From Thermoproteota archaeon (GTDB taxonomy: Archaea; Korarchaeota; JAOZGF01; JAOZFZ01): DNA of 64,000 nt. The notes under the pieces are model-generated. The model searched no databases. It was given only the letters and a program-made list of their open reading frames with translations, and had not been told where the DNA came from. The DNA lies in NCBI GenBank assembly GCA_027492035.1, contig JAOZFT010000020.1, forward strand, positions 1 to 64,000, given 5' to 3'. The position numbers and the translations under genes were made by a program. Below are positions 18,510-52,444 of this stretch, piece by piece. Positions within the stretch are counted from its first letter, which is position 1. Each line of letters begins with the position of its first letter.

Positions 18510-18914
18510 TTGGCTAAGTTTCCTTCTGATGAGTGGGTGAAGGAGTTCTGTAAAACTCTTAATCAAAACAAGGCTTACGAGGAAGCTGCCAAAACTTGGG
18601 AGGGTGACTTTTTGTTCATAATAACTCCTGATGAAGATTTAGATAAAGAATATGTTTTCTATGTGGACCTGTGGCACGGTAAATGCAGAGAAGCTCGTTT
18701 ACTTTCAAACAGAGAAGAGAAAAGGACTGAATATATTTATGAAGGGAAGTACTCTAACTGGAAGAAACTAATTAAGGGAGAGATAGACCCAATTAAAGGT
18801 TTATTAACGAGAAAATTTAAATTGAAGGGGAACATGAGCAAAGTTATGAGAGCAACTAAAGCAGCTAAAGAACTGGTTAAAACAGCTAGTTTGGTTCCGA
18901 CAGATTTCATCTAG
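18510..18914 (+). CDS. SCP2 sterol-binding-like protein
   Basis: A 134-residue protein matching the small archaeal SCP2-like proteins: FLFIITPDEDLDKEYVFYVDLWHGKC, a WKKLIKGEIDPIKGLLTRKFKLKG segment split over two strands, and a final amphipathic helix. The fold has a hydrophobic pocket for lipids or acyl-CoA. TTG start after GAGGTGAGG. It precedes the alcohol dehydrogenase by 29 bases and the AOR after that, so all three may be co-transcribed. Confidence 0.75.
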   Translation: MAKFPSDEWVKEFCKTLNQNKAYEEAAKTWEGDFLFIITPDEDLDKEYVFYVDLWHGKCREARLLSNREEKRTEYIYEGKYSNWKKLIKGEIDPIKGLLTRKFKLKGNMSKVMRATKAAKELVKTASLVPTDFI

Positions 18915-18943
18915 AAACCCTTGAAAAATTAAGGGAGGGAAAA

Positions 18944-20113
18944 ATGTGGTATTTTTCTTCTCCTAAGTTAATTGTTTTTGGTGAAGATGCTCTTGAGTAT
19001 TTAGAGAGTGTAAAAGCTTCTAAAGTTTTCATAGTTACAGACAAGAACATTGCTTCATTCGGTTTACTTGAAAAGGTTTTAAAACATTTAGAGGTTTCAG
19101 GTGTAGAAGTAAAAGTTTTTGATGAAGTTGAACCTGAACCTCCGAAAGAAACTATTTTTAAAGGTGCCGAGTTAGCTTCACAGTTTAAGCCTGACTTAAT
19201 AATTGGGTTAGGTGGAGGCTCATGTATAGATTCAGCGAAAGCAATCCGTGTACTTTATGAAAGACCTGATGTACAAATTGAAGAAATATCCCCTCTTACT
19301 AACCTTGGTTTAGGAAAGAAAACAAAATTGATCTGCATACCTACGACTTCAGGGACAGGTGCAGAGGCAACATGGGCTGTCGTAATAACTGATAAAAGAA
19401 AAAAAGTTAAACTTGAACTTGCTTCTAGAGAGGTTATTTCCGATGTAGCTATTCTAGACCCTGAACTTGTCAAAAAATTACCTAAAAAATTAACGGTTGA
19501 ACCTGCCTTAGACGCATTAGCCCAAGCTATTGAAGCCTATATTTCACAGTGGAAAAACGACTTCAGTGATGCCTTAGCAGTTAAGGCTGTACAGTTAATT
19601 TTCAAGTACCTACCTAGAGCTTACAAGAAAGGGTCAAGTGACATTGAGGCAAGGGAGAAAATGCATATTGCAGCAACTCTTTCAGGTTTAGCTTTCTCAA
19701 ATTCCCAAGTAACAATTTTACATGCCTTAGCTCACAGTGCAGGTGCTATTTTCAGAATTCCACACGGCAGGGCAGTAGCTCTTTTTACTCCTTACAGTCT
19801 AAGGTTTAATTTTAGTAAATCATGGAAACTCTATGCTGAATTAGCTGAAACAATTGGTTTGAAAGCTGTAAGTAAAAAAGAACTTGCTGTGAAATTTTTG
19901 AATGAAATAGAGAAGCTCTTGAAAGAATTAAAAGTTGCAACTGCAGTTAAAGACTTAAGGATAGAGAGGGAGGAGTATCTCTCGAAAATAAATGAGTTAG
20001 TTGAAAGAACAATGGAATCCACTGGTTTAATAGCTAATCCACGGGAAGTAACAGAAGATGACGTTAAAAAACTCTTCATTTACGCATATGAAGGAAAAAA
20101 TGTAGATTTCTGA
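18944..20113 (+). CDS. iron-containing (group III) alcohol dehydrogenase
   Basis: A 389-residue enzyme with the NAD(P) motif GLGGGSCIDSAKAI, TSGTGAEATWAVVI, and the metal region. The ligands Asp (LDALAQAIEAYIS) and two His (LHALAHSAGAIFRIPHG) are present, but the usual DALxH histidine is Gln (DALAQ). It interconverts alcohols and aldehydes. With the downstream AOR it could form an alcohol-aldehyde-acid route. Start ATG after GGGAGGG. Confidence 0.9.
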   Translation: MWYFSSPKLIVFGEDALEYLESVKASKVFIVTDKNIASFGLLEKVLKHLEVSGVEVKVFDEVEPEPPKETIFKGAELASQFKPDLIIGLGGGSCIDSAKAIRVLYERPDVQIEEISPLTNLGLGKKTKLICIPTTSGTGAEATWAVVITDKRKKVKLELASREVISDVAILDPELVKKLPKKLTVEPALDALAQAIEAYISQWKNDFSDALAVKAVQLIFKYLPRAYKKGSSDIEAREKMHIAATLSGLAFSNSQVTILHALAHSAGAIFRIPHGRAVALFTPYSLRFNFSKSWKLYAELAETIGLKAVSKKELAVKFLNEIEKLLKELKVATAVKDLRIEREEYLSKINELVERTMESTGLIANPREVTEDDVKKLFIYAYEGKNVDF

Positions 20114-20174
20114 AGGAAAAAGTAAATAATGGCATGTAAACCCACTAAAAAGGTTTCTTTTTTTCTAGAAAAAG

Positions 20175-21983
20175 GTGTTGAAGAAGTTGTACAGTTACGC
20201 AGGTAAAATAGCAAAAATAGATTTAAGCAAAAGAAAAGTTGTTTTAGAGGAAACTCCTAAAGAATACCTAAAAAACTACATAGGAGGTTCAGGTTTAGCT
20301 GCACGCATACTCCGTAACAAAATATCAAAGGAAACAAACCCTCTAGGTTCTGAAAATGTTTTGCTCTTCATGACAGGTCCATTAACTGGAACACCTGCAC
20401 CCTCCTGTGGAAGATACTGTGTCTGCTCTAAATCCCCACTGACCAGTATTTGGGGAGAATCTAATTCAGGTGGAAAATTTGGCCCATTCCTTAAATTTGC
20501 AGGTTATGATGGGGTCTATATAAAAGGAAGAGCAGATAAACTTGTCTACCTCTCAATAATTGATGGAGAAATAGAAATTCGAAATGCTGGTTACTTGAAA
20601 GGCATGAACACTTATGAAACACAGAAAGTATTAACTGAAGAAATTGGGTTGAAGAATTTAAGCATTGCATGTATAGGGTTAGCTGGAGAAAATCTTGTCA
20701 AGTACGCCTCAATAATGAATGATGGAGGAAGAGCGGCAGGAAGGACAGGGATGGGTGCAGTTATGGGAGCCAAGAATTTAAAAGCGGTAATTGTATCTGG
20801 GCATAAAGAAATGAAACTGGCTAAACCTAAAAAGTTTAAGGAAGTAGTTGAAAAAGCTGTAGAGGAAATAAAAGAAAATTTATTGACTTCACTTTACTAC
20901 AATGTAGGAACAGCGGGAGGGGTAGATATGCTCCAAGAGTTAGGTGACATGCCAAATAAGTACTTCACAGAAGGAATTTTTTCTGAAGCTTCGAAAATAA
21001 GCGGTGCAGAAATAAGTGAAAAAATACTGGTGCGCAATCAACACTGCTATGGATGTCCAATAGGGTGCGGAAAAATAATCAAGATCCCTAAAGGAAGATA
21101 TAAACTGCCAGAAACAGATGGTCCCGAATATGAAACAGTAGCAGCTTTTGGCTCCTTAATTTTGAATAATAGCTTGGAAGGGTTAGCTTACGCCAATTAC
21201 CTATGCAACAGTTACGGCTTAGACACGATCTCTTGTGGTTCCACGATAGCATTCGCTATTTATCTTTACCAGCAGAATAAATTGTCTAAAGAAGAAACTG
21301 AAGGGTTAGAACTGGAATGGGGGAATATAGGCCAGGTTATTGAATTAATTAAACTTATTGCTGAAAGGAAAGGGTTTGGAAAAATTTTAGCTGAAGGGAG
21401 CAGGTATATAGCTGAAAAGAAAGGGTTAAAAGGGTTTGCAGCTGAAGTGAAAGGGTTAGAGGTGCCCTACCATGATCCCAGAGCGTTTTTTGGAATGGCA
21501 ATTTGTTATGCAACATCCCCACGAGGAGCATGCCACCTACAAGGCGACATGTATCTTATAGATCTGGGACAGGAAATACCTGAACTTAATATTTTTTCAG
21601 GTGACCGTTTCAATTTAAAAGGAAGAATAGAAACCGTTATAAAAGCTCAAAATTGGAGATCTATCTACAACTCCTTGATAATGTGTCAATTCTCTAACCC
21701 TAACCCGAAACTAATTGTTTCTATGCTTAATTACGCAACAGGTTTCAGTTACAGTTTAAAGGGGCTTCTATCTGCTGGTTCAAAAATTTTTAACCTGAAA
21801 CGGTTAATAAACTTCAATTTAGGGATTTCAGCCAAAGATGATTATTTACCGGAAATATTTAAGCAGCCTTTACAAGGGGGTACACAGGGAAAGACACCTA
21901 AAATAGAGGAGCATTTAAAAAATTATTACAGACTCAGGAAATGGGATCCTAAAACAGGGAAGCCCCTTGAAGAACAACCCTAG
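20175..21983 (+). CDS. tungsten-dependent aldehyde:ferredoxin oxidoreductase (AOR family)
   Basis: A 602-residue AOR-family protein. N-terminal YAGKIAKIDLSKRKV and IGGSGLAARIL start domain 1. HCYGCPIGCG supplies three cluster cysteines, and a fourth is likely in SLIMCQF. GRTGMGAVMGAKNLKAV binds the pterin cofactor. These enzymes oxidise aldehydes to acids and reduce ferredoxin. GTG at 20175 is the longest start; TTG at 20187, nine bases after GGTG, fits the family start better. It directly follows the alcohol dehydrogenase. Confidence 0.92.
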   Translation: MLKKLYSYAGKIAKIDLSKRKVVLEETPKEYLKNYIGGSGLAARILRNKISKETNPLGSENVLLFMTGPLTGTPAPSCGRYCVCSKSPLTSIWGESNSGGKFGPFLKFAGYDGVYIKGRADKLVYLSIIDGEIEIRNAGYLKGMNTYETQKVLTEEIGLKNLSIACIGLAGENLVKYASIMNDGGRAAGRTGMGAVMGAKNLKAVIVSGHKEMKLAKPKKFKEVVEKAVEEIKENLLTSLYYNVGTAGGVDMLQELGDMPNKYFTEGIFSEASKISGAEISEKILVRNQHCYGCPIGCGKIIKIPKGRYKLPETDGPEYETVAAFGSLILNNSLEGLAYANYLCNSYGLDTISCGSTIAFAIYLYQQNKLSKEETEGLELEWGNIGQVIELIKLIAERKGFGKILAEGSRYIAEKKGLKGFAAEVKGLEVPYHDPRAFFGMAICYATSPRGACHLQGDMYLIDLGQEIPELNIFSGDRFNLKGRIETVIKAQNWRSIYNSLIMCQFSNPNPKLIVSMLNYATGFSYSLKGLLSAGSKIFNLKRLINFNLGISAKDDYLPEIFKQPLQGGTQGKTPKIEEHLKNYYRLRKWDPKTGKPLEEQP

Positions 21984-43362: not shown

Positions 43363-44742
43363 GTGGCTGAAATAAGTCCTGTAGTTTTAACTAAGGAAGA
43401 AATTTACTCCTTATTAAATATACTGGAAGATAGGGAAGTAACGGAGGCTAAAGCGAAGTCGTTAACTCCGTTGAAGGAAACAATTCTTTTTGAGGGAAAA
43501 CCTATGACAGCCATAGTGAAAGATGTAAATGGGAAGGAGTACATAGACATGACAGCTCAAGCTTGGACCCTTAACTTAGGTTATGTACATCCAGACATCC
43601 TTTACAGTGTGTATTTACAGATGCAGAAGCTTACACATGTAAGGTACGGCTTCCCCACAATCCCAAGAATAAAATTAATAAATAAATTGACTCAGTTAGC
43701 TCCTGGAAAACTGAAAAGGGTTTCTTTCAACAATGAAGGAGGAGGTTTAGCAGTTGAAGCCTCCATTAAACTTGCACTAGTGAATAAACCGGAAGGAAGA
43801 ACCTTCATAACTTTCTGGAGAGGGTACCACGGAAGTACTTTAACCACTATTTCAGCAAGCAATTATTTACCCTTTATAATAAGGTTTTCCGGCTTCGGTT
43901 TAGACAGATTTGTAAAGGTTCCTTTCCCTTACTGTTACAGGTGTCCCTTCAATTTCGAGTACCCTAACTGTAACTTGGAATGTTTGAATGTCCTTGAATC
44001 AACTTTAAAAAGGGGGGTGAATGAACCTGTAGCTGGAGTAATTATGGAACCTATACAGGGGCCTGGTGGACAAATACCTGCTCCAAAAGAATACATTAAG
44101 GGTGTAAGGCAAGTTTGTGATGAAAACAATGTTTACTTGATCTGGGATGAATCTCAAACCGCCTTTGGTAGAGTTGGCGAAATGTTCGCCGCTGACCTTT
44201 ACAGTACAACACCTGACATCATGGCTTTAACCAAAGCTTTAGGCGGAGGGTTCCCAATTGGTGCCTTGCTTGCTAGGGAGGATTTGAAAGGGTTTAGTGA
44301 AGGGGAGGAGCACACAACTTTCGGAAGCAACCCGGTAATGTTTGCAGCTGCTTTAGTGAATTTAGAAGTGATTCAAAGGCTTAATTTGGCGAAAAAGGCC
44401 AAGGAGACAGGTAAATACATAACTAAAAGACTTGAAGAAATGAAGGAAGATTATGAGTTAATTGGCGACGTAAGGGGGCCAGGGTTATTTATAGGGGTTG
44501 AGCTTGTGAAGGATAAGGAAACAAAGGAGCCTGCCACAGAAGAAGCTGACAATTTAGTTGCAGAGGCAATGAAGAGGGGAGTTATTTTTGATTTAAGCAT
44601 GCCTGAAATAACTTTTACAAACGAATTTATTCGAAACGTGATCAAATTTAAGCCTCCCTTGACAATAACACAGGAGGAAGTTGATAAGGCGCTGAATGTT
44701 TTTGAGGAAAGTTTAAAAGAAACTATTGAAGAGTATCTTTAA
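43363..44742 (+). CDS. class III PLP-dependent aminotransferase
   Basis: A 459-residue fold-type I aminotransferase. NNEGGGLAVEASIKLA precedes the active site, IWDESQTAFGRVGEMFA contains the PLP-ring Asp, and ALTKALGGGFPIGALL the Schiff-base Lys. It is closest in shape to 4-aminobutyrate/acetylornithine-type enzymes; substrate not determinable. A cysteine cluster (CYRCPFNFEYPNC) in the middle is unusual and could bind metal. GTG start after GGGGAGG. Confidence 0.88.
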   Translation: MAEISPVVLTKEEIYSLLNILEDREVTEAKAKSLTPLKETILFEGKPMTAIVKDVNGKEYIDMTAQAWTLNLGYVHPDILYSVYLQMQKLTHVRYGFPTIPRIKLINKLTQLAPGKLKRVSFNNEGGGLAVEASIKLALVNKPEGRTFITFWRGYHGSTLTTISASNYLPFIIRFSGFGLDRFVKVPFPYCYRCPFNFEYPNCNLECLNVLESTLKRGVNEPVAGVIMEPIQGPGGQIPAPKEYIKGVRQVCDENNVYLIWDESQTAFGRVGEMFAADLYSTTPDIMALTKALGGGFPIGALLAREDLKGFSEGEEHTTFGSNPVMFAAALVNLEVIQRLNLAKKAKETGKYITKRLEEMKEDYELIGDVRGPGLFIGVELVKDKETKEPATEEADNLVAEAMKRGVIFDLSMPEITFTNEFIRNVIKFKPPLTITQEEVDKALNVFEESLKETIEEYL

Positions 44743-44792: not shown

Positions 44793-45968
44793 TTGTTTAT
44801 GGAGAACTGGAGATTAATAGATTTAGGTTACGCTGAACCCTACATGGCTCAAACTTTTTATGAAGCCGTTGCAGAAGCTTTAAATAGAGGTTTTTCCATG
44901 AATACATTGATTCTTGTCCAGCCTTCCAGTCCGTACGTCTGTCTCGGCTACCACCAAGTGTTAGAGAAAGAAATAGATGTCAACTACTGTAAAGAAAGGG
45001 GGTTACCAATAATTAGGAGAACACAGGGTGGAGGAGCAACTTACCTTGACTCAAACCAAATCTTTTACCAAGTAATTGTTGATGAAAAAAGTGAAACTGT
45101 ACCTAAAACTGTTAATGATTTTTTCAAAAAGCTTCTTGAAGTGACAGTGTATGTTTATAGGAAACTTGGCTTAAATGCTGAGTTTAAACCAATAAACGAT
45201 GTCATGGTGCAAGGTAGGAAAATATCAGGTAATGGAGCAAGTAAGACAGGTAAAGCAATGATTCTTGTCGGAAACATAATTTTAGATCTCGACTACGGTT
45301 CAATGGCTAAAGTGTTAAAGGTTCCCAGTGAAAAATTCAGAGATAAAATGGCTAAAAGCATTAAGCAATGGGTTACTTCTTTAAAAAGGGAATTAGGGTA
45401 TGTTCCATCAGTTAAAGAAATAAAGAAACATATAGTGGAGGGTTACGAAAAAATCCTCAATATAAAACTTAACCCTTCAAAGCCTTCAGGGGAAGAACTT
45501 AAAATTTGGAGGGAAGAAATAAAGCCGAGACATATGTCGGAAGAATGGCTCCACTTACCTTTGTTTACTCACAAAAAAATCCTTAGTGACAGGGCTGTTA
45601 AAATAGCTGACGGAGTGAAGGTTGTAGAGGTTGATTACAAAGCAAAGAAACTGATAAGGGTCACAGCCGAAGTTATTGGTGATAAAATAATTGATTTAAT
45701 GATCACCGGTGACTTCTTCATGATGTCTCCTAATGGCGTTGAAAAACTTGAGAAATCCCTTAAGGGAGCATCGTTGAAGGAGGGGGAGTTGAGGAAAAAA
45801 ATAACAGAAACTTTCAGAAAAGAAACAATTCAAGCCCCGGGTTTAGAGCCTGAAGACCTGGTAAATGCAATAATGAAAATCAAAAAATATACAGTAAAGT
45901 ATCCACCTGACATTTACCCCTTTACACACCCGGAAAGAAGTAATTCCAATAACGAAAGAACACGTTAA
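44793..45968 (+). CDS. lipoate-protein ligase (LplA type)
   Basis: A 391-residue protein. The catalytic domain has RRTQGGGATYLDSNQIFYQ for lipoyl-AMP, then NDVMVQGRKISGNGASKTG with the catalytic Lys. A C-terminal accessory domain (RHMSEEWLHLPLFTHKK onward) resembles the E2-type C domain, so both parts are fused, while some archaea encode them separately. It attaches lipoate to carrier proteins. No lipoylated complex is in the window. TTG 44793 or ATG 44799 may be the start. Confidence 0.88.
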   Translation: MFMENWRLIDLGYAEPYMAQTFYEAVAEALNRGFSMNTLILVQPSSPYVCLGYHQVLEKEIDVNYCKERGLPIIRRTQGGGATYLDSNQIFYQVIVDEKSETVPKTVNDFFKKLLEVTVYVYRKLGLNAEFKPINDVMVQGRKISGNGASKTGKAMILVGNIILDLDYGSMAKVLKVPSEKFRDKMAKSIKQWVTSLKRELGYVPSVKEIKKHIVEGYEKILNIKLNPSKPSGEELKIWREEIKPRHMSEEWLHLPLFTHKKILSDRAVKIADGVKVVEVDYKAKKLIRVTAEVIGDKIIDLMITGDFFMMSPNGVEKLEKSLKGASLKEGELRKKITETFRKETIQAPGLEPEDLVNAIMKIKKYTVKYPPDIYPFTHPERSNSNNERTR

Positions 45969-47728: not shown

Positions 47729-49054
47729 ATGAGTAAACTGCAGGAGACGGGTTTGGAATCAGAACCTGAAGCCTTACTTGATGGAATAGATGAAGAGAAA
47801 TACATTGTTGCAACTTACTACATGGCCATGAAAAAGGACTGGAATGCTCATAAGGTTGCCAGGGCAGCAGCAATTGAGCAAAGTACAGGTACCTGGGTCC
47901 CTGTACCGGGGGAAACACCAGAAGTTAGGAGGGAGCATGTGGCAAAAGCAGTTGGGGTTTATGAAGTACCTAATTTTGAATTTGAAATCCCTGAAGAAAC
48001 TAAGGAAAGACACTACATTATCCAAATTGCTTATCCTTTCATTAACTTCGGTTTTCAGTTCCCTATGTTGTTCAGCACAATTGTAGGGAACCTTTCATTG
48101 GGAGGAAAAGTTAAGCTTTTGGATTTGAAGTTTCCAAAAGACTTCCTTAAAGAGTTTAAAGGCCCAAAGTTTGGTGTGAAAGGGGTTAGGGAAATACTTA
48201 AGGTGTCTGAGAGGCCTCTTGTCAATAACATGATAAAGCCTTGCACAGGTTTTCCGCCTGATGTAGGGGCTAAACTTGTTTATGCTGTAAGTAAAGGGGG
48301 AGTTGACCTTATAAAAGATGATGAACTCCTTGCAGACGCCCCATTTAATAAATTAGAGGAAAGAGTAACCAAGTACATGGAAGCTATCAACAAAGCAGAA
48401 GAAGAAACAGGAGAAAAAACAATCTACACAATAAACGTTACTGATAAACCTTCGAAAGTGTTAGAGAACGCTGAAAAAGTAATTGAGTTAGGGGCTAATG
48501 GGCTAATGATTAATTACTTAGCGGTGGGTTTGCCTATTTTAAGGGAGTTAACTGAAGACCCGTCTGTAAAAGTTCCAGTTCTAGGCCACATGGATGTATC
48601 AGGTGCAATGTATGAGTCTCATTTCTCAGGGGTTTCTTCAATTCTTTTACTTGGTAAATTACCTAGGTTGGCGGGTGCAGACATAATAGTTTACCCTGCC
48701 CCTTACGGAAAAGCCCCTATTTTGAAAGAGAAGTATATCCAAATAGCTAAAGCTCATTTGCTACCTTTTCAACACATTAAACAAACTTTTCCCATGCCTA
48801 GCGGAGGCTTAACTGTGACTCATTTACCGGAACTAATCAAGGATTTAGGTTACGAATTCATTGTAGGAGTAGGGGGGGCTATTCATGCCCATCCAATGGG
48901 GCCTGAAGCAGGGGCTAAAGCTTTCAGGCAAGCTTTAGATGTTTTAATGCAAGGTAAAAGCTTAGATGATGCATTAGATGAATATAAGGAATTAAGTGCA
49001 GCGGTTGAAGCTGCATTTAAAGCAATTAAGGAATGGAAAGAAATTGTTTCATAA
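47729..49054 (+). CDS. RuBisCO-like protein (form IV)
   Basis: A 441-residue RuBisCO large-subunit homologue. It keeps the positions of E60/T65 (IEQSTGTW), N123 (VGNL), K175 (NNMIKPCTG) and the carbamate/Mg motif K201-D-D-E (GGVDLIKDDELL), plus SGG and a final GG...HPMG phosphate region. The positions of K177 (Cys), R295 (LGHMD) and H327 are changed, so it should not fix CO2. Form IV proteins act on other enolates, for example in sulfur salvage. Similarity to archaeal (Archaeoglobus-type) members is my impression only. Confidence 0.85.
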   Translation: MSKLQETGLESEPEALLDGIDEEKYIVATYYMAMKKDWNAHKVARAAAIEQSTGTWVPVPGETPEVRREHVAKAVGVYEVPNFEFEIPEETKERHYIIQIAYPFINFGFQFPMLFSTIVGNLSLGGKVKLLDLKFPKDFLKEFKGPKFGVKGVREILKVSERPLVNNMIKPCTGFPPDVGAKLVYAVSKGGVDLIKDDELLADAPFNKLEERVTKYMEAINKAEEETGEKTIYTINVTDKPSKVLENAEKVIELGANGLMINYLAVGLPILRELTEDPSVKVPVLGHMDVSGAMYESHFSGVSSILLLGKLPRLAGADIIVYPAPYGKAPILKEKYIQIAKAHLLPFQHIKQTFPMPSGGLTVTHLPELIKDLGYEFIVGVGGAIHAHPMGPEAGAKAFRQALDVLMQGKSLDDALDEYKELSAAVEAAFKAIKEWKEIVS

Positions 49055-49101
49055 ACTTTTTTAAACTTTTAATGGAGAAAGAAGAAGGAGGTGTTGTTTA
49101 A

Positions 49102-49464
49102 ATGCCTAAGGTTCCGTCCTTTATTTTAAAGAAGTTATATGTAAAAAACTCTCTTAAGAACTTGGAGGATGGCTTCCAATTTGAAATAAAAAACGTTTTA
49201 GCGGATGCTACAATAAACGCACCTATCGAATTAACTGTAGACAATAAACCTGTGGAAAAGGAGAAAGTGACTTTAGTTATAGGGGGTAAGGAAATACCTT
49301 CTGGACAGGTTTCTTCCTCTAGTCCTTTAAAGTTCCCTGTTCAAACTTTAGTGCAAGTAAAAATCGAGGATAAACCTCTAAGTTCAGGAAAACATAAAAT
49401 TGAAATAAAGACGAATTCTCAAGAGTACGGGGAAATTTCTTTCTCGGTAAAGGGAGAAATCTAA
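49102..49464 (+). CDS. small beta-rich protein next to the RuBisCO-like gene
   Basis: A 120-residue soluble protein beginning PSFILKKLYVKNSLKN, with alternating strands and a lysine/valine-rich pattern suggesting an immunoglobulin-like or similar beta sandwich. No signal and no cysteines. It follows the RuBisCO-like gene by 47 bases in the same direction with its own GGAGGTG site, so they are probably co-transcribed. Family not named; function unknown. Confidence 0.65.
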   Translation: MPKVPSFILKKLYVKNSLKNLEDGFQFEIKNVLADATINAPIELTVDNKPVEKEKVTLVIGGKEIPSGQVSSSSPLKFPVQTLVQVKIEDKPLSSGKHKIEIKTNSQEYGEISFSVKGEI

Positions 49465-49498
49465 AGTTTAACTTTAGCAAAATCTCCCTCTTTTTTTT
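49451..49498 (+). terminator. hairpin plus T8 terminator
   Basis: AGGGAGA (49451-49457) pairs with TCTCCCT (49483-49489); inside, CTAAAG (49461-49466) pairs with CTTTAG (49472-49477). Eight T follow at 49491-49498. The stem overlaps the last codons of the upstream gene. It looks like a bacterial intrinsic terminator, unusual beside the plain T-tracts elsewhere here. Confidence 0.65.
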
Positions 49499-49575
49499 CA
49501 ATTGCACTCTCTAAAACTGTTAAACCATTAAAAGTTGAATTTTTCCAGAAAAGTACTTGAATAATTTAAGGTGTT

Positions 49576-50331
49576 TTAAATTAACCCTATTCTTTTACAG
49601 ATTTCTTTCACTGACACAAAGGCAGGGGAGTCGCTGGGCAAATCCAGTAATGATTTACCTTCCATTAAATAAGTCATTACGTTTTCATCTACAGGCACTA
49701 TACCCGCCACTTTTAAACCTATTTTTTCAGCCTCTCTCTTCAACATATCCTCAACTTCTGGAGGGAATTTGTTCCCTATCAAAAGAATTTTTCCAACTTT
49801 TATGTGCACCTCTTTAGTTAACTCCTTTATTCTTCTAGCTGTTTCTAACCCTGTTTTTGAAGTATCTGTTATAACTAGTAAGAGATCTACATCATGATCT
49901 GTTCTTCTGCTTAAGTGCTCAAGTCCTGCTTCCATATCTAACAAAACTATGTCGTAGTTTTTCTCTATTTTATCTATAATGGAGGCTAGGACAGAATTAA
50001 CGTAACAGTAGCACCCTTCACCCTCTGTCCTCCCCATCGCTAATACATCAAACCTCGTTGTTTCTTTAAGTGTTTCATAGATCCATCCTTCCAACAAGCT
50101 GTCCTTTGCTACGTACGCTAAGGACCCGTCTTCCAAGCCTTTACGGAATTTGTTAACTACCTCACCTACTGTTTTTTCCAGGTTTAGGCCTAGTACGAGT
50201 GGTACATTTGTTGACGGGTCTGCATCTATTAAAAGGATTGCTTTATCTGTGTTTTCAACAAGCGCTTTCAAAATGAGGCTTGTTACTGTGGTTTTTCCTG
50301 TTCCTCCTTTACCTGAAACCGAAATAATCAT
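49576..50331 (-). CDS. CooC-like nickel-insertion ATPase (MinD/ParA class)
   Basis: A 251-residue deviant-Walker ATPase. SGKGGTGKTTV is the signature P-loop, LLIDADPSTNVPLVLGL follows, and EGEGCYCYVN contains the CXC pair that binds nickel in CooC dimers. LLDMEAGLEHLSRRT matches CooC rather than MinD. CooC helps insert Ni into carbon monoxide dehydrogenase, but no CODH gene is in the window. It lies downstream of the AOR gene on the same strand, 169 bases away. Confidence 0.85.
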   Translation of the reverse strand: MIISVSGKGGTGKTTVTSLILKALVENTDKAILLIDADPSTNVPLVLGLNLEKTVGEVVNKFRKGLEDGSLAYVAKDSLLEGWIYETLKETTRFDVLAMGRTEGEGCYCYVNSVLASIIDKIEKNYDIVLLDMEAGLEHLSRRTDHDVDLLLVITDTSKTGLETARRIKELTKEVHIKVGKILLIGNKFPPEVEDMLKREAEKIGLKVAGIVPVDENVMTYLMEGKSLLDLPSDSPAFVSVKEICKRIGLI

Positions 50332-50500: not shown

Positions 50501-52444
50501 TTAAACAACTACTTCCATTTCATCTTGTTTATTTTTTAATGCATTCTCTAAATCTTCAGCAGCAAAGTCTAAACCTAATTTTCTCAATGTTTCTGGTTTA
50601 GGTATACCTTCTAACGTCCAACCGTGGATTTTATAGTTTCTGTCAAGCATCTGATCAAACTTGTCCCTGTGAAGTTTTTCTCCCTTATAAGGACCTGATT
50701 TGATAGGTTCATTGAAGAACCTTTCTGGTGGATAATCATCCTTCCTTGTAAAACCCGCATGCAAGAAATTATAGGTTCTTTCAAGGTTGTGAATTCTCTC
50801 CCCTATCTGCATCAATTCTTCTGAACTTATATCCCAATTTAACGCAGCTGAAACTAGGTCTGCGAGGTCTTGGGGAGTAAGGAGGTCAACGTCATACCAT
50901 ACAGTTGAAAAGAAACAAATTCCCAAACTGTTCAGTACCGCATGTAATTTTTCATGATAAGCAACCAATTCAGCCTTTCCCTTATAAGTGCTTGGGTTAG
51001 TGGCTGTTGCAACTCCATATATTTTTAAAGCAGTCTCAGGAGATATTTTTTCATAAGTGTGCTCCACTATAGGTGAACCGCTGCAGTGTCCTCCTCCTCT
51101 AGTAGATAAGGCAGCTCCTAAAGCCCATCCTTTAGGCATACGCATTGTTTCGTAAAGGTCTTGTTTTTTCATGGCAATAGCGTATTTCTGTGACTTTCTC
51201 CCTACCTTTTCAGCTGCTCTCTTCACCCCTTCAGCCAAAACGTTTCCGAACCCTTCCCTGAAAGCAATCTTCCTTATAAGCTCCATTAATGTTTCATGAT
51301 TTCCCCAAACAAGTTTTAACCCATCTGTATCCTTTTCTGTCAGTATTCCTTTTTCATAGCATTCGTAAGCCCAGGCAATTGACTCCGCAGCTGTATCTAT
51401 ATCTATTCCGTACTGGTTGCAGAGGATGTGGGCTTTTATTACAGCTGGTACATAGTAAATTTCAAGTTTACTTGCGAAGTCAGCTACAGAATTTGCTTCA
51501 ACAGCTTCTCCTTCTGTACCTGTATACGGTCCCTCATTTATTTTGTAATAGGCTCTGCACCCTATAGGGCAGGAGCTACAGCTTAATTTTTTCACTTCAT
51601 ACTTTCTGAATTCTTCAGGGCTGACTTTTTCCAGTTTTTCAGGTTCTACGTATCCATTTTGGAAATGCTTTACTGGGTTGCTGCAAAGTTCATTCTTTCT
51701 TTTCATGGCGGAAATCGTGCGAAGTTCGTGGAGTCTCTTGGTTGTCCGTGACTTTTCAACCTTTTTCCATGCTTTTTTAACTAGTTTGTTGAATTTCTCC
51801 GGGTTTGCAACCTCCACTTCACCTGTGCCTTTGACAGCTACTGCTTTCAAGTTTTTAGACCCCATAATTGAACCTAGTCCGCATTTGGCTGCTGCTCTAG
51901 CTTTATTGACTATTACAGCAGCTCCTCTTACCAGTTTTTCCCCAGCAGGGCCTATTGAAGCAACTTGTACATTTCTGCCCAGTTTCTTGCGTAAAGTATC
52001 AACTGTTTTCCATGTTGTTTTGCCCCATAGTTTCGTTGCATCTCTTATTTCCACTTGTTCGTTTTCAATCCATAGAAAGACGGGTTTGTTTGCTCTACCT
52101 TTAATTATAATGTTTCCAAAGCCTGCTGCTTTCAGTGCTGGCGCAAATTCCCCTGCAGCGTTTGCTGATCCAACTCCGTTGTTGAAATAATTTTTTGAGT
52201 CAACATTGAGCCTTACAGCTCCTGGAGCCCTTGTACCCACTAAGGTTCCTGCACCTAAAAGCAACGGGTTTTTAGGATCTAAAGGATTTGTTTGGGGTGT
52301 TGTTTCTCTGTAAAGGAAATACTGATTTAAGCCCCTTCCTCCAAGGAATTTTCTGTAATATTTAACTGTTTCATTGGTTACATAAACTTTTTCTTTTCCA
52401 AGATCCACCCTCAAAACTTTCCCAAGTACATTTTCTAGGCTCAA
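50501..52444 (-). CDS. tungsten aldehyde:ferredoxin oxidoreductase (second copy)
   Basis: A 647-residue AOR-family enzyme. Start GKVLRVDLGKEKVYV, FLGGRGLNQYFLYR, pterin-binding CGLGSIMGSKNLKAVAVKG, cluster cysteines LSCSSCPIGCRA plus SLGICFF. It clearly differs from the 20175 copy, so the two probably take different aldehydes. It reduces ferredoxin while making acids. TTG start with GGAG about eleven bases upstream. Confidence 0.93.
   Translation of the reverse strand: MSLENVLGKVLRVDLGKEKVYVTNETVKYYRKFLGGRGLNQYFLYRETTPQTNPLDPKNPLLLGAGTLVGTRAPGAVRLNVDSKNYFNNGVGSANAAGEFAPALKAAGFGNIIIKGRANKPVFLWIENEQVEIRDATKLWGKTTWKTVDTLRKKLGRNVQVASIGPAGEKLVRGAAVIVNKARAAAKCGLGSIMGSKNLKAVAVKGTGEVEVANPEKFNKLVKKAWKKVEKSRTTKRLHELRTISAMKRKNELCSNPVKHFQNGYVEPEKLEKVSPEEFRKYEVKKLSCSSCPIGCRAYYKINEGPYTGTEGEAVEANSVADFASKLEIYYVPAVIKAHILCNQYGIDIDTAAESIAWAYECYEKGILTEKDTDGLKLVWGNHETLMELIRKIAFREGFGNVLAEGVKRAAEKVGRKSQKYAIAMKKQDLYETMRMPKGWALGAALSTRGGGHCSGSPIVEHTYEKISPETALKIYGVATATNPSTYKGKAELVAYHEKLHAVLNSLGICFFSTVWYDVDLLTPQDLADLVSAALNWDISSEELMQIGERIHNLERTYNFLHAGFTRKDDYPPERFFNEPIKSGPYKGEKLHRDKFDQMLDRNYKIHGWTLEGIPKPETLRKLGLDFAAEDLENALKNKQDEMEVVV

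Follow-up and report, generated by a model that had tools for sequence, protein, structure and literature searches.

A RuBisCO-like protein (RLP) and a small protein encoded directly downstream of it lie in the window, the whole stretch of 64,000 nucleotides that was analysed. The RLP (positions 47729-49054, + strand, 441 aa) belongs to a form IV clade of its own, and the small protein (49102-49464, + strand, 120 aa) is homologous to the beta subunit found in C-glycoside deglycosidases (CGDs). Our main reading, which we give a probability of about 0.45, is that the RLP is a metal-dependent enzyme that enolises or cleaves a mono-phosphate made by a kinase, with the small protein as a CGD-beta-type accessory subunit shaping the active site.

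The Pfam scan of the RLP gave RuBisCO_large (PF00016) at 1.6e-46 and RuBisCO_large_N (PF02788) at 3.8e-11, both over the cut-off, and with these N- and C-terminal domains the protein has the domain content of the form IV RuBisCO superfamily. The residue alignment agrees with the initial annotation, which had K175 and the KDDE motif kept and K177, R295 and H327 lost. K175 corresponds to K170 in the window RLP and K201/D203/E204 to K196/D198/E199, the KDDE metal and carbamate site; H294 (H287) and K334 (K328) are also kept, and K177, R295 and H327 are replaced by C172, M288 and V321. The same replacements run through the family, with Cys for K177 in 38/38 tips, Met for R295 in 35/38 and Val or Ile for H327 in 38/38, and E60, T65, N123, K175, K201, D203, E204, H294 and K334 are invariant in all 38. 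Since K177, R295 and H327 are replaced, the alignment argues against carboxylation of RuBP, and the family-wide losses support the non-carboxylating role proposed earlier. A reaction of the enolase type is less certain, because the RLP family keeps K334 and N123 and MtnW, the 2,3-diketo-5-methylthiopentyl-1-phosphate enolase (form IV-YkrW), does not.

MtnW is the closest characterised relative. In the final tree, for which 38 of the 83 family rows were retained, the RLP family forms its own clade with a support of 100/99, the three MtnW rows form a separate group (100/100), and the two are sisters (99/84), with the window RLP beside and not inside MtnW; the deep joins are unsure owing to the long branches of the Agrobacterium RLP, 1ykw and form I. 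MtnW is thus the nearest clade, and it also shares the fold, the carbamate and metal site and the loss of the P2 site. The AF2 model of the RLP has a pLDDT of 88.7, and the best matches of the RLP in the PDB, including those by fold (Z 46.5-49.0), are of the MtnW type. There is at most a slim chance that the RLP works in methionine salvage as an MtnW-type enolase, with the small gene as an incidental neighbour. It scores below both MtnW models (369.5 against a cut-off of 409, and 315 against 513.6), and of E60, N123 and K334, all kept in the RLP family, every one is replaced in MtnW. The N123 position is Asn in 38/38 family rows and in 3/3 MtnW rows Lys, which we take to be the general base K98; the K334 position is Lys in 38/38 family rows and Ser in 3/3 MtnW rows. 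Membership in MtnW was rejected on the cut-offs, the tree and these two positions, and the phylogeny suggested in the initial annotation thus does not place the RLP inside this characterised form. A search for methionine-salvage genes, also suggested there, gave a divided answer: MtnA, on the same contig, scores above its cut-off (375.4 against 279), but MtnB fails (60.9 against 137). No mtn gene was recognised among the families common to at least four RLP loci and no Bacillus-type cluster was seen; the partners of the RLP family are instead an FGGY kinase and either a class III aminotransferase (AT3) or a saccharopine-dehydrogenase-like (SDH-like) protein.

Another candidate reaction is the 1,3-isomerisation of 5-methylthioribulose-1-P or 5-deoxyribulose-1-P, which the DeepYkr RLP1 from Rhodospirillum and Rhodopseudomonas catalyses (PMC5893883). 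The window RLP could in principle do the same, as MtnA is present, a class II aldolase-like match was found under the MtnB cut-off, and the lost P2 site suits a mono-phosphorylated ketose 1-phosphate. We nevertheless consider this unlikely. The 3qfw-like Agrobacterium RLP, taken as the stand-in for the DeepYkr type and the only one in the tree, lies far off at the end of a long branch, with His in place of E204 and Arg in place of K334, and a 1,3-isomerase of this kind leaves the FGGY kinase and the AT3 or SDH-like genes unexplained. OiaX and the RLPs found beside four-carbon-acid-sugar kinases resemble the family in that a sugar kinase lies beside or near the RLP in several records and that K334 is kept; they differ in that the kinase is annotated as a four-carbon acid sugar kinase and not as FGGY, that R295 is kept and that they form a separate clade.

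The RLP clade occurs widely, in many archaea, in Chloroflexota and in further lineages, and 387 related stretches were confirmed in one scan. The RLPs of two Archaeoglobales MAGs (L072 and L087), included in the tree without that of A. fulgidus itself, fall inside the clade, a likeness to the form IV-Aful group (the Archaeoglobus fulgidus RLPs), which a passage of PMC10173188 names without giving a function. In favour of the main reading, the window genome alone has the small gene among the 29 genomes of its phylum, and in the other members sampled the RuBisCO matches did not exceed 196 bits, as compared to 535-614 for the clade members G042, G084 and G080. The viral scan found no relatives, and no Rfam family reached its gathering score in the window. 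In a literature search that mostly excluded subscription journals, no description was found of the RLP clade, of its FGGY and aminotransferase context or of CGD-beta homologues. Most form IV RuBisCO-like groups are without a known function (PMC5575542). Because this clade is large and has consistent enzyme neighbours, its substrate can be searched for via the kinase and the amine enzyme.

The small gene starts 47 bp after the stop of the RLP gene, and its ATG is preceded by the Shine-Dalgarno sequence GGAGGTG (49087-49093, + strand). The beta-rich 120-residue gene with its own ribosome site, as first described, is thus there, and the partner that had been left without an assignment is a CGD beta-subunit homologue. 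The small protein is of the PF25653/CGDB family, with 30.6 bits for Pfam CGDB against a cut-off of 27.6, and 16/16 Foldseek matches in the PDB at E<=1e-3 were C-glycoside deglycosidases, which rules out a family without relatives. Two of six further scanned proteins with the domain, from L071 and L042, also passed the CGD beta cut-off. The AF2 model (pLDDT 91.5) predicts the beta-sandwich of CGD beta subunits, with Z 14.6 against DgpB in the fold comparison and 8.8 for the first unrelated row. The likeness to the known beta subunits (DgpB, DfgB; PF19906) thus includes a family match above the Pfam cut-off, the same fold over 108-118 of the 120 residues and a gene adjoining that of a TIM-barrel enzyme. 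The identity in the Foldseek rows is, however, only 8-21%, the neighbours are the RLP and a CooC-like protein, with a RuBisCO-like barrel in the place of the xylose-isomerase-like alpha subunit, and no link to C-glycosides was seen. The arrangement also resembles form I RuBisCO, in which the gene of a small partner directly follows that of the large barrel protein, but the small partner here has a predicted CGD beta fold, and Pfam gave no RuBisCO small-subunit match on it.

The small gene lies directly 3' of the RLP gene in five loci, the window and L047, L048, L063 and L071, which all belong to one weakly supported branch (90/42). It is quite possible that the small protein does not bind the RLP, and either serves another enzyme of the pathway or has simply been inherited along with its neighbour. 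The small gene of L174 stands beside AT3 and FGGY, at over 1 Mb from both RLPs in the genome, and in L207-L210 it is next to or near AT3, 6-9 kb from the RLP. Many members of the small family have no RLP adjoining them: they are fused to a UroD-like domain, form the C-terminal end of proteins of about 312 aa, occur alone in many Asgard genomes, or are found in G415 and G638. The Methanolliviera members of the same RLP branch are without an adjacent small gene, and their two genomes gave no match to the small family. Against such a non-binding role, the spacing between the RLP and the small gene is 12-13 bp in L047, L048, L063 and L071, and the closest upstream genes of the RLP in L047 have the opposite direction, so that the pair looks like a unit of its own. 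In the tree of the small proteins, moreover, the RLP-adjacent and cluster-adjacent copies are found in one part (SH-like 0.90), mixed with some copies placed otherwise.

The co-occurrence of the two families, proposed as a check, therefore has two sides, a direct link in one RLP branch and no association at the genome level in Asgard archaea (Fisher p=0.16). Among 227 Asgard genomes, 75 have the small family, 123 the RLP and 46 both, with the RLP list made at E<=1e-90 and the small list including fused and weak matches. Both families were present in 16 of 43 genomes searched, adjacent in only 4; these are the genomes of 43 of 80 loci, chosen to cover lineages and all loci with an adjacent small gene, and not a random sample. 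The Asgard table and the 43-genome search rule out that the two are obligate partners as a general rule.

The genes around the RLP loci, named by eye from the translations where no family search was made, point to a pathway. An FGGY kinase gene is near the RLP gene in 57/84 loci, often overlapping its start by 4 bp, and in the window genome the kinase (G000:C9:557891-559396, 47% identity) is on another contig, unlinked to the RLP; the loci are not fully independent, as L038/L061 and L039/L114, whose contigs are equal in length, look like duplicates. The window has an AT3 of 459 aa (43363-44742, + strand), an orthologue of the AT3 found beside the RLP and the FGGY kinase elsewhere, with 53.5-64.5% identity to the AT3 of 15 RLP loci and 47-48% to those of L174 and L207-L210. 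The first AT3 count was 26 loci, from a cluster that mixes subfamilies: besides the 15, L082 matches over only 116 residues, L053 and L059 have 28% and 32% identity, and none of the others matched at E<=1e-20. In the 54 loci that extend 2.5 kb or more to each side, SDH-like was found in 23, AT3 in 19, both in 0 and neither in 12, with L053 dropped from the AT3 set and the other subfamilies left in. Each of these two traits changes 14 times on the tree, and the independent-pairs test of replacement gave a median p of 0.125, above 0.05. A search of the window genome, run without a positive control, gave no match for the SDH-like gene. In L071 the order, in one direction, is AT3, FGGY, RLP, small gene and MFS transporter, and in L207-L210 the RLP, an aldehyde ferredoxin oxidoreductase (AOR), SCP2, Fe-ADH, small, AT3 and FGGY genes lie within about 12-13 kb. 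Three homologues of this last cluster are encoded on the + strand of the window, an SCP2-domain protein (18510-18914, 134 aa, 45-50% identity), an iron-containing alcohol dehydrogenase (18944-20113, 389 aa, 40-41%) and an AOR (20175-21983, 602 aa, 38-39%).

In the main reading, and judging by gene content, the core of the pathway besides the RLP would be an enzyme turning an amine into a carbonyl (AT3 here, SDH-like elsewhere) and the FGGY kinase. AT3 would turn an amine into a hydroxy-carbonyl compound, which the kinase would then phosphorylate at one end. The RLP could bind this single phosphate at the P1 site of RuBisCO, which retains T55, K328 and the glycine loops, and the P2 phosphate site is gone (M288, V321). 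Carbamylated K196 with Mg2+ would enolise the 2-keto phosphate. Because the K334 lysine is kept and is absent from MtnW, we favour a step beyond simple enolisation, which may be an isomerisation, a decarboxylation or a C-C cleavage. The small protein may cover the barrel mouth of the RLP, where it would aid substrate binding, as suggested by its fold, the gene adjacency and the analogy of the beta subunit on the TIM-barrel alpha subunit of C-glycoside deglycosidases. In these enzymes, the active site is formed between alpha and beta, with beta binding the substrate (PMC8563793, PMC12141560). Should the two proteins bind each other, the small one would be an accessory subunit of a RuBisCO-superfamily enzyme without relation to the small subunit of form I, and the CGD-beta fold might then be seen as a helper that TIM-barrel enzymes use in general. 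A more specific proposal, that the RLP is a two-subunit enzyme with an independently gained CGD-beta-type active-site subunit, catalysing a new step (isomerisation or C-C cleavage) on a ketose phosphate that comes from an amine and is phosphorylated by FGGY, in a pathway found across archaea and Chloroflexota, is less likely than not.

Convergent to the RLP and the small gene, on the - strand as first described, are a CooC-like ATPase (49576-50331, 251 aa), whose best PDB match is CooC1 3kje (4.8e-23), and a second AOR (50501-52444, 647 aa), the tungsten AOR of the initial annotation, with 34-36% identity to the AOR of L207-L210. The four genes adjoin in the window, and with an AOR in the L207-L210 clusters they might be read as one module linked to CO or aldehydes. 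This is very improbable; CooC and AOR are on the opposite strand, a CODH gene with a CooC-like ATPase of its own lies farther along the contig, and among the loci read, another CooC-like gene near an RLP occurs only in L037 and L038. The claim that no CODH is nearby holds inside the window, where none was found, but the gene of a CODH catalytic subunit (TIGR01702 749.9 bits, cut-off 478) lies on the same contig about 17 kb downstream, at approximately 67236-69116 in window coordinates. For this reason the window CooC is not clearly an orphan, as it had been called. A second CooC-like ATPase gene adjoins the CODH gene outside the window.

The gene for the RuBisCO-like protein (RLP; 441 aa, 47729-49054) has both RuBisCO domains above the Pfam cut-offs, and a gene of 120 aa (49102-49464) starts 47 bp past its stop, with GGAGGTG ahead of the ATG; the pair is present as the initial annotation described it. 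K175 and the metal site had been read as kept, and K177, R295 and H327 (RuBisCO numbering) as lost, and the same pattern runs through an alignment of 38 tips of the RLP family, the clade of this protein, with references. E60, T65, N123, K175, K201, D203, E204, H294 and K334 are identical in all 38, and W66 is kept in 37. In 38/38, Cys replaces K177, one of Ala, Ser and Thr replaces H298, and Val or Ile replaces H327; R295 is Met in 35/38. Beside the lost R295 every tip has an Asp (D289 in the window), a position that is Ala in the three MtnW (methionine-salvage enolase) and four form I/III rows compared. The P2 site is lost in the three MtnW rows too, but these have Gly, Lys and Ser where the RLP family keeps E60, N123 and K334. 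Read against the roles of the compared residues in RuBisCO, the pattern says that carbamate-metal chemistry would be kept and that one phosphate would be bound, not two.

In an IQ-TREE tree of 81 proteins the RLP family is one group (branch support 100/99) and adjoins MtnW (99/84). It probably includes IV-Aful, a group name used in passages of PMC10173188, because Archaeoglobales members fall inside it, in a tree built without the RLP of A. fulgidus itself. The structure predicted for the window RLP (pLDDT 88.7) is nearest to MtnW-type structures (Z 46.5-49.0), the lowest of which is on a par with the Chlorobium RLP (Z 46.4). A scan of species genomes that used an alignment of four sequences as query gave 428 candidate stretches, of which 387 were confirmed as relatives. 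The best 80 of the 387 come from Theionarchaea, Methanolliviera, Asgard lineages, Bathyarchaeota, Archaeoglobus, Chloroflexota, Cryosericum and others. An RLP match at E<=1e-90 was seen in 123 of 227 genomes of one Asgard phylum (that of genome G080). The RLP is a testable member of a widespread clade of unknown function. A true type III RuBisCO is encoded on a different contig of the window genome (L045 1241-2542, minus strand; TIGR03326, 644.8 vs 497.45). A different RLP group, with R295, H327 and K334 kept and K177 changed to Cys, adjoins a Fe-S-protein-like gene in two loci (L040 7743-8981, L041 7572-8816).

The putative small partner, earlier called unknown, is now identified by family and predicted fold. 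Pfam places its protein in PF25653 (7.8e-27) and in PF19906, the family of C-glycoside deglycosidase beta subunits (30.6 bits against a cut-off of 27.6). The AlphaFold2 model, built from five sequences, reaches a pLDDT of 91.5, all 16 Foldseek matches to it in the PDB at E<=1e-3 are C-glycoside deglycosidases, and a second structure aligner gave DgpB at Z 14.6, the first unrelated row being at 8.8. According to passages of two papers, in these enzymes the alpha barrel and the beta subunit form the active site between them, and the latter assists substrate binding (PMC8563793; PMC12141560). PF25653 members are also found fused to the UroD domain (PF01208). This domain is a TIM barrel, and it is possible that PF25653 serves there as accessory domain of another such barrel. 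The fusion is at the N-end of the UroD-like protein in L161 (2377-3882, minus), L169 (530-2035, minus) and L160 (1674-3173, plus), and in the first two it lies beside a corrinoid-protein-like gene. In Asgard-phylum genomes (L163, L164, L165, L167) some proteins of roughly 311-313 aa end in a PF25653 domain, and in a pair of genomes from one archaeal genus (L264 6550-7999, L265 6911-8336) a triosephosphate-isomerase-like gene is followed by one opposite gene and then, at a short distance, a small-family gene.

The two genes are directly adjacent in five loci, with gaps of 13 bp (L047, L048, L071), 12 bp (L063) and 47 bp (window), and these RLPs share one branch with Methanolliviera (90/42), both of whose genomes gave no match to the small family. 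The order in L071 is class III aminotransferase (AT3), FGGY kinase, RLP, small gene and MFS transporter, then an opposite-strand gene whose L063 counterpart is a regulator by Pfam. In the phylum that was sampled (29 genomes), no genome but that of the window gave a match to the small gene. RuBisCO matches of the other members sampled for it do not exceed 196 bits; the ones included in the tree (L017, L021, L025, L029, L031, G001) group with type III, and some weaker ones were left off it. This fits a joint gain of RLP and small gene as a two-gene cassette, one genome being thin evidence. The pairing is not a general rule, since adjacency is missing in 12 of the 16 genomes that have both genes (out of 43 searched), the Asgard table (46 genomes with both) gives no association (p=0.16), and in G415 and G638 no RLP was seen in 17 kb around the small gene. 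Lipoate-protein-ligase-like genes lie within a few kb of small or RLP genes (window 44793-45968, L047 12591-13697, L048 12630-13742, L042 2814-3632), which may be chance.

Neighbours were counted in 84 loci, the best 80 of the 387 relatives, three further loci and the window region, with at least two pairs that look duplicated. FGGY kinase is present in 57, often immediately upstream in the same direction, a saccharopine-dehydrogenase-like (SDH-like) gene in 29, and the AT3 cluster, which is mixed, in 26. Of the 54 loci that extend at least 2.5 kb to either side, 23 have SDH-like, 19 AT3, none both and 12 neither. Each changes 14 times on the tree, and independent pairs never change in the same direction, a test that is not significant (median p 0.125). 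We infer from this pattern that the two are unrelated enzymes for one amine-to-carbonyl step. The window AT3 (43363-44742) is 53.5-64.5% identical to aminotransferases of 15 other RLP loci, and the window genome gave no SDH-like match in a search without positive control, which is what replacement by AT3 would predict. The FGGY orthologue of this genome (47% identity) is on another contig, C9, and adjoins a HisC-type aminotransferase, a homologue of which (44%) sits between AT3 and FGGY in L051. A further class III aminotransferase subfamily, distinct from the first, lies soon 3' of the RLP in loci of Chloroflexota and Bacillota (L101, L106, L117, L119, L120), and Thorarchaeota-type loci (L091, L099, L107, L116, L118, L121, L125 and others) have Formate-THF-ligase-like, FolD-like and FtcD-like genes near it, mostly divergent.

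Four genomes of one genus, for which "Lokiarchaeia-like" is our own label, hold within about 12-13 kb (L207-L210) the RLP, cut by the contig end in L210, an acyl-CoA-ligase-type gene, an aldehyde ferredoxin oxidoreductase (AOR), an SCP2-domain protein, an iron alcohol dehydrogenase, the small gene, AT3 and FGGY. In the window, SCP2, alcohol dehydrogenase and AOR homologues lie at 18510-21983, which suggests that much of this set is present in the window genome, scattered over three places.

In a check for methionine salvage, a gene some 45 kb further downstream on this contig scored above the MtnA cut-off, but MtnB stayed below its own. CooC-like and AOR genes are convergent to the RLP and small gene. 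The CooC assignment stands (PDB match 3kje, 4.8e-23), but the gene is not clearly an orphan, as a CODH gene and a second CooC-like ATPase lie just beyond the window, about 17 kb downstream of it. That CODH region (L131 2619-8485, or about 66619-72485 in window coordinates) has ferredoxin-like, NAD(P)-oxidoreductase-like and CooC-like genes.
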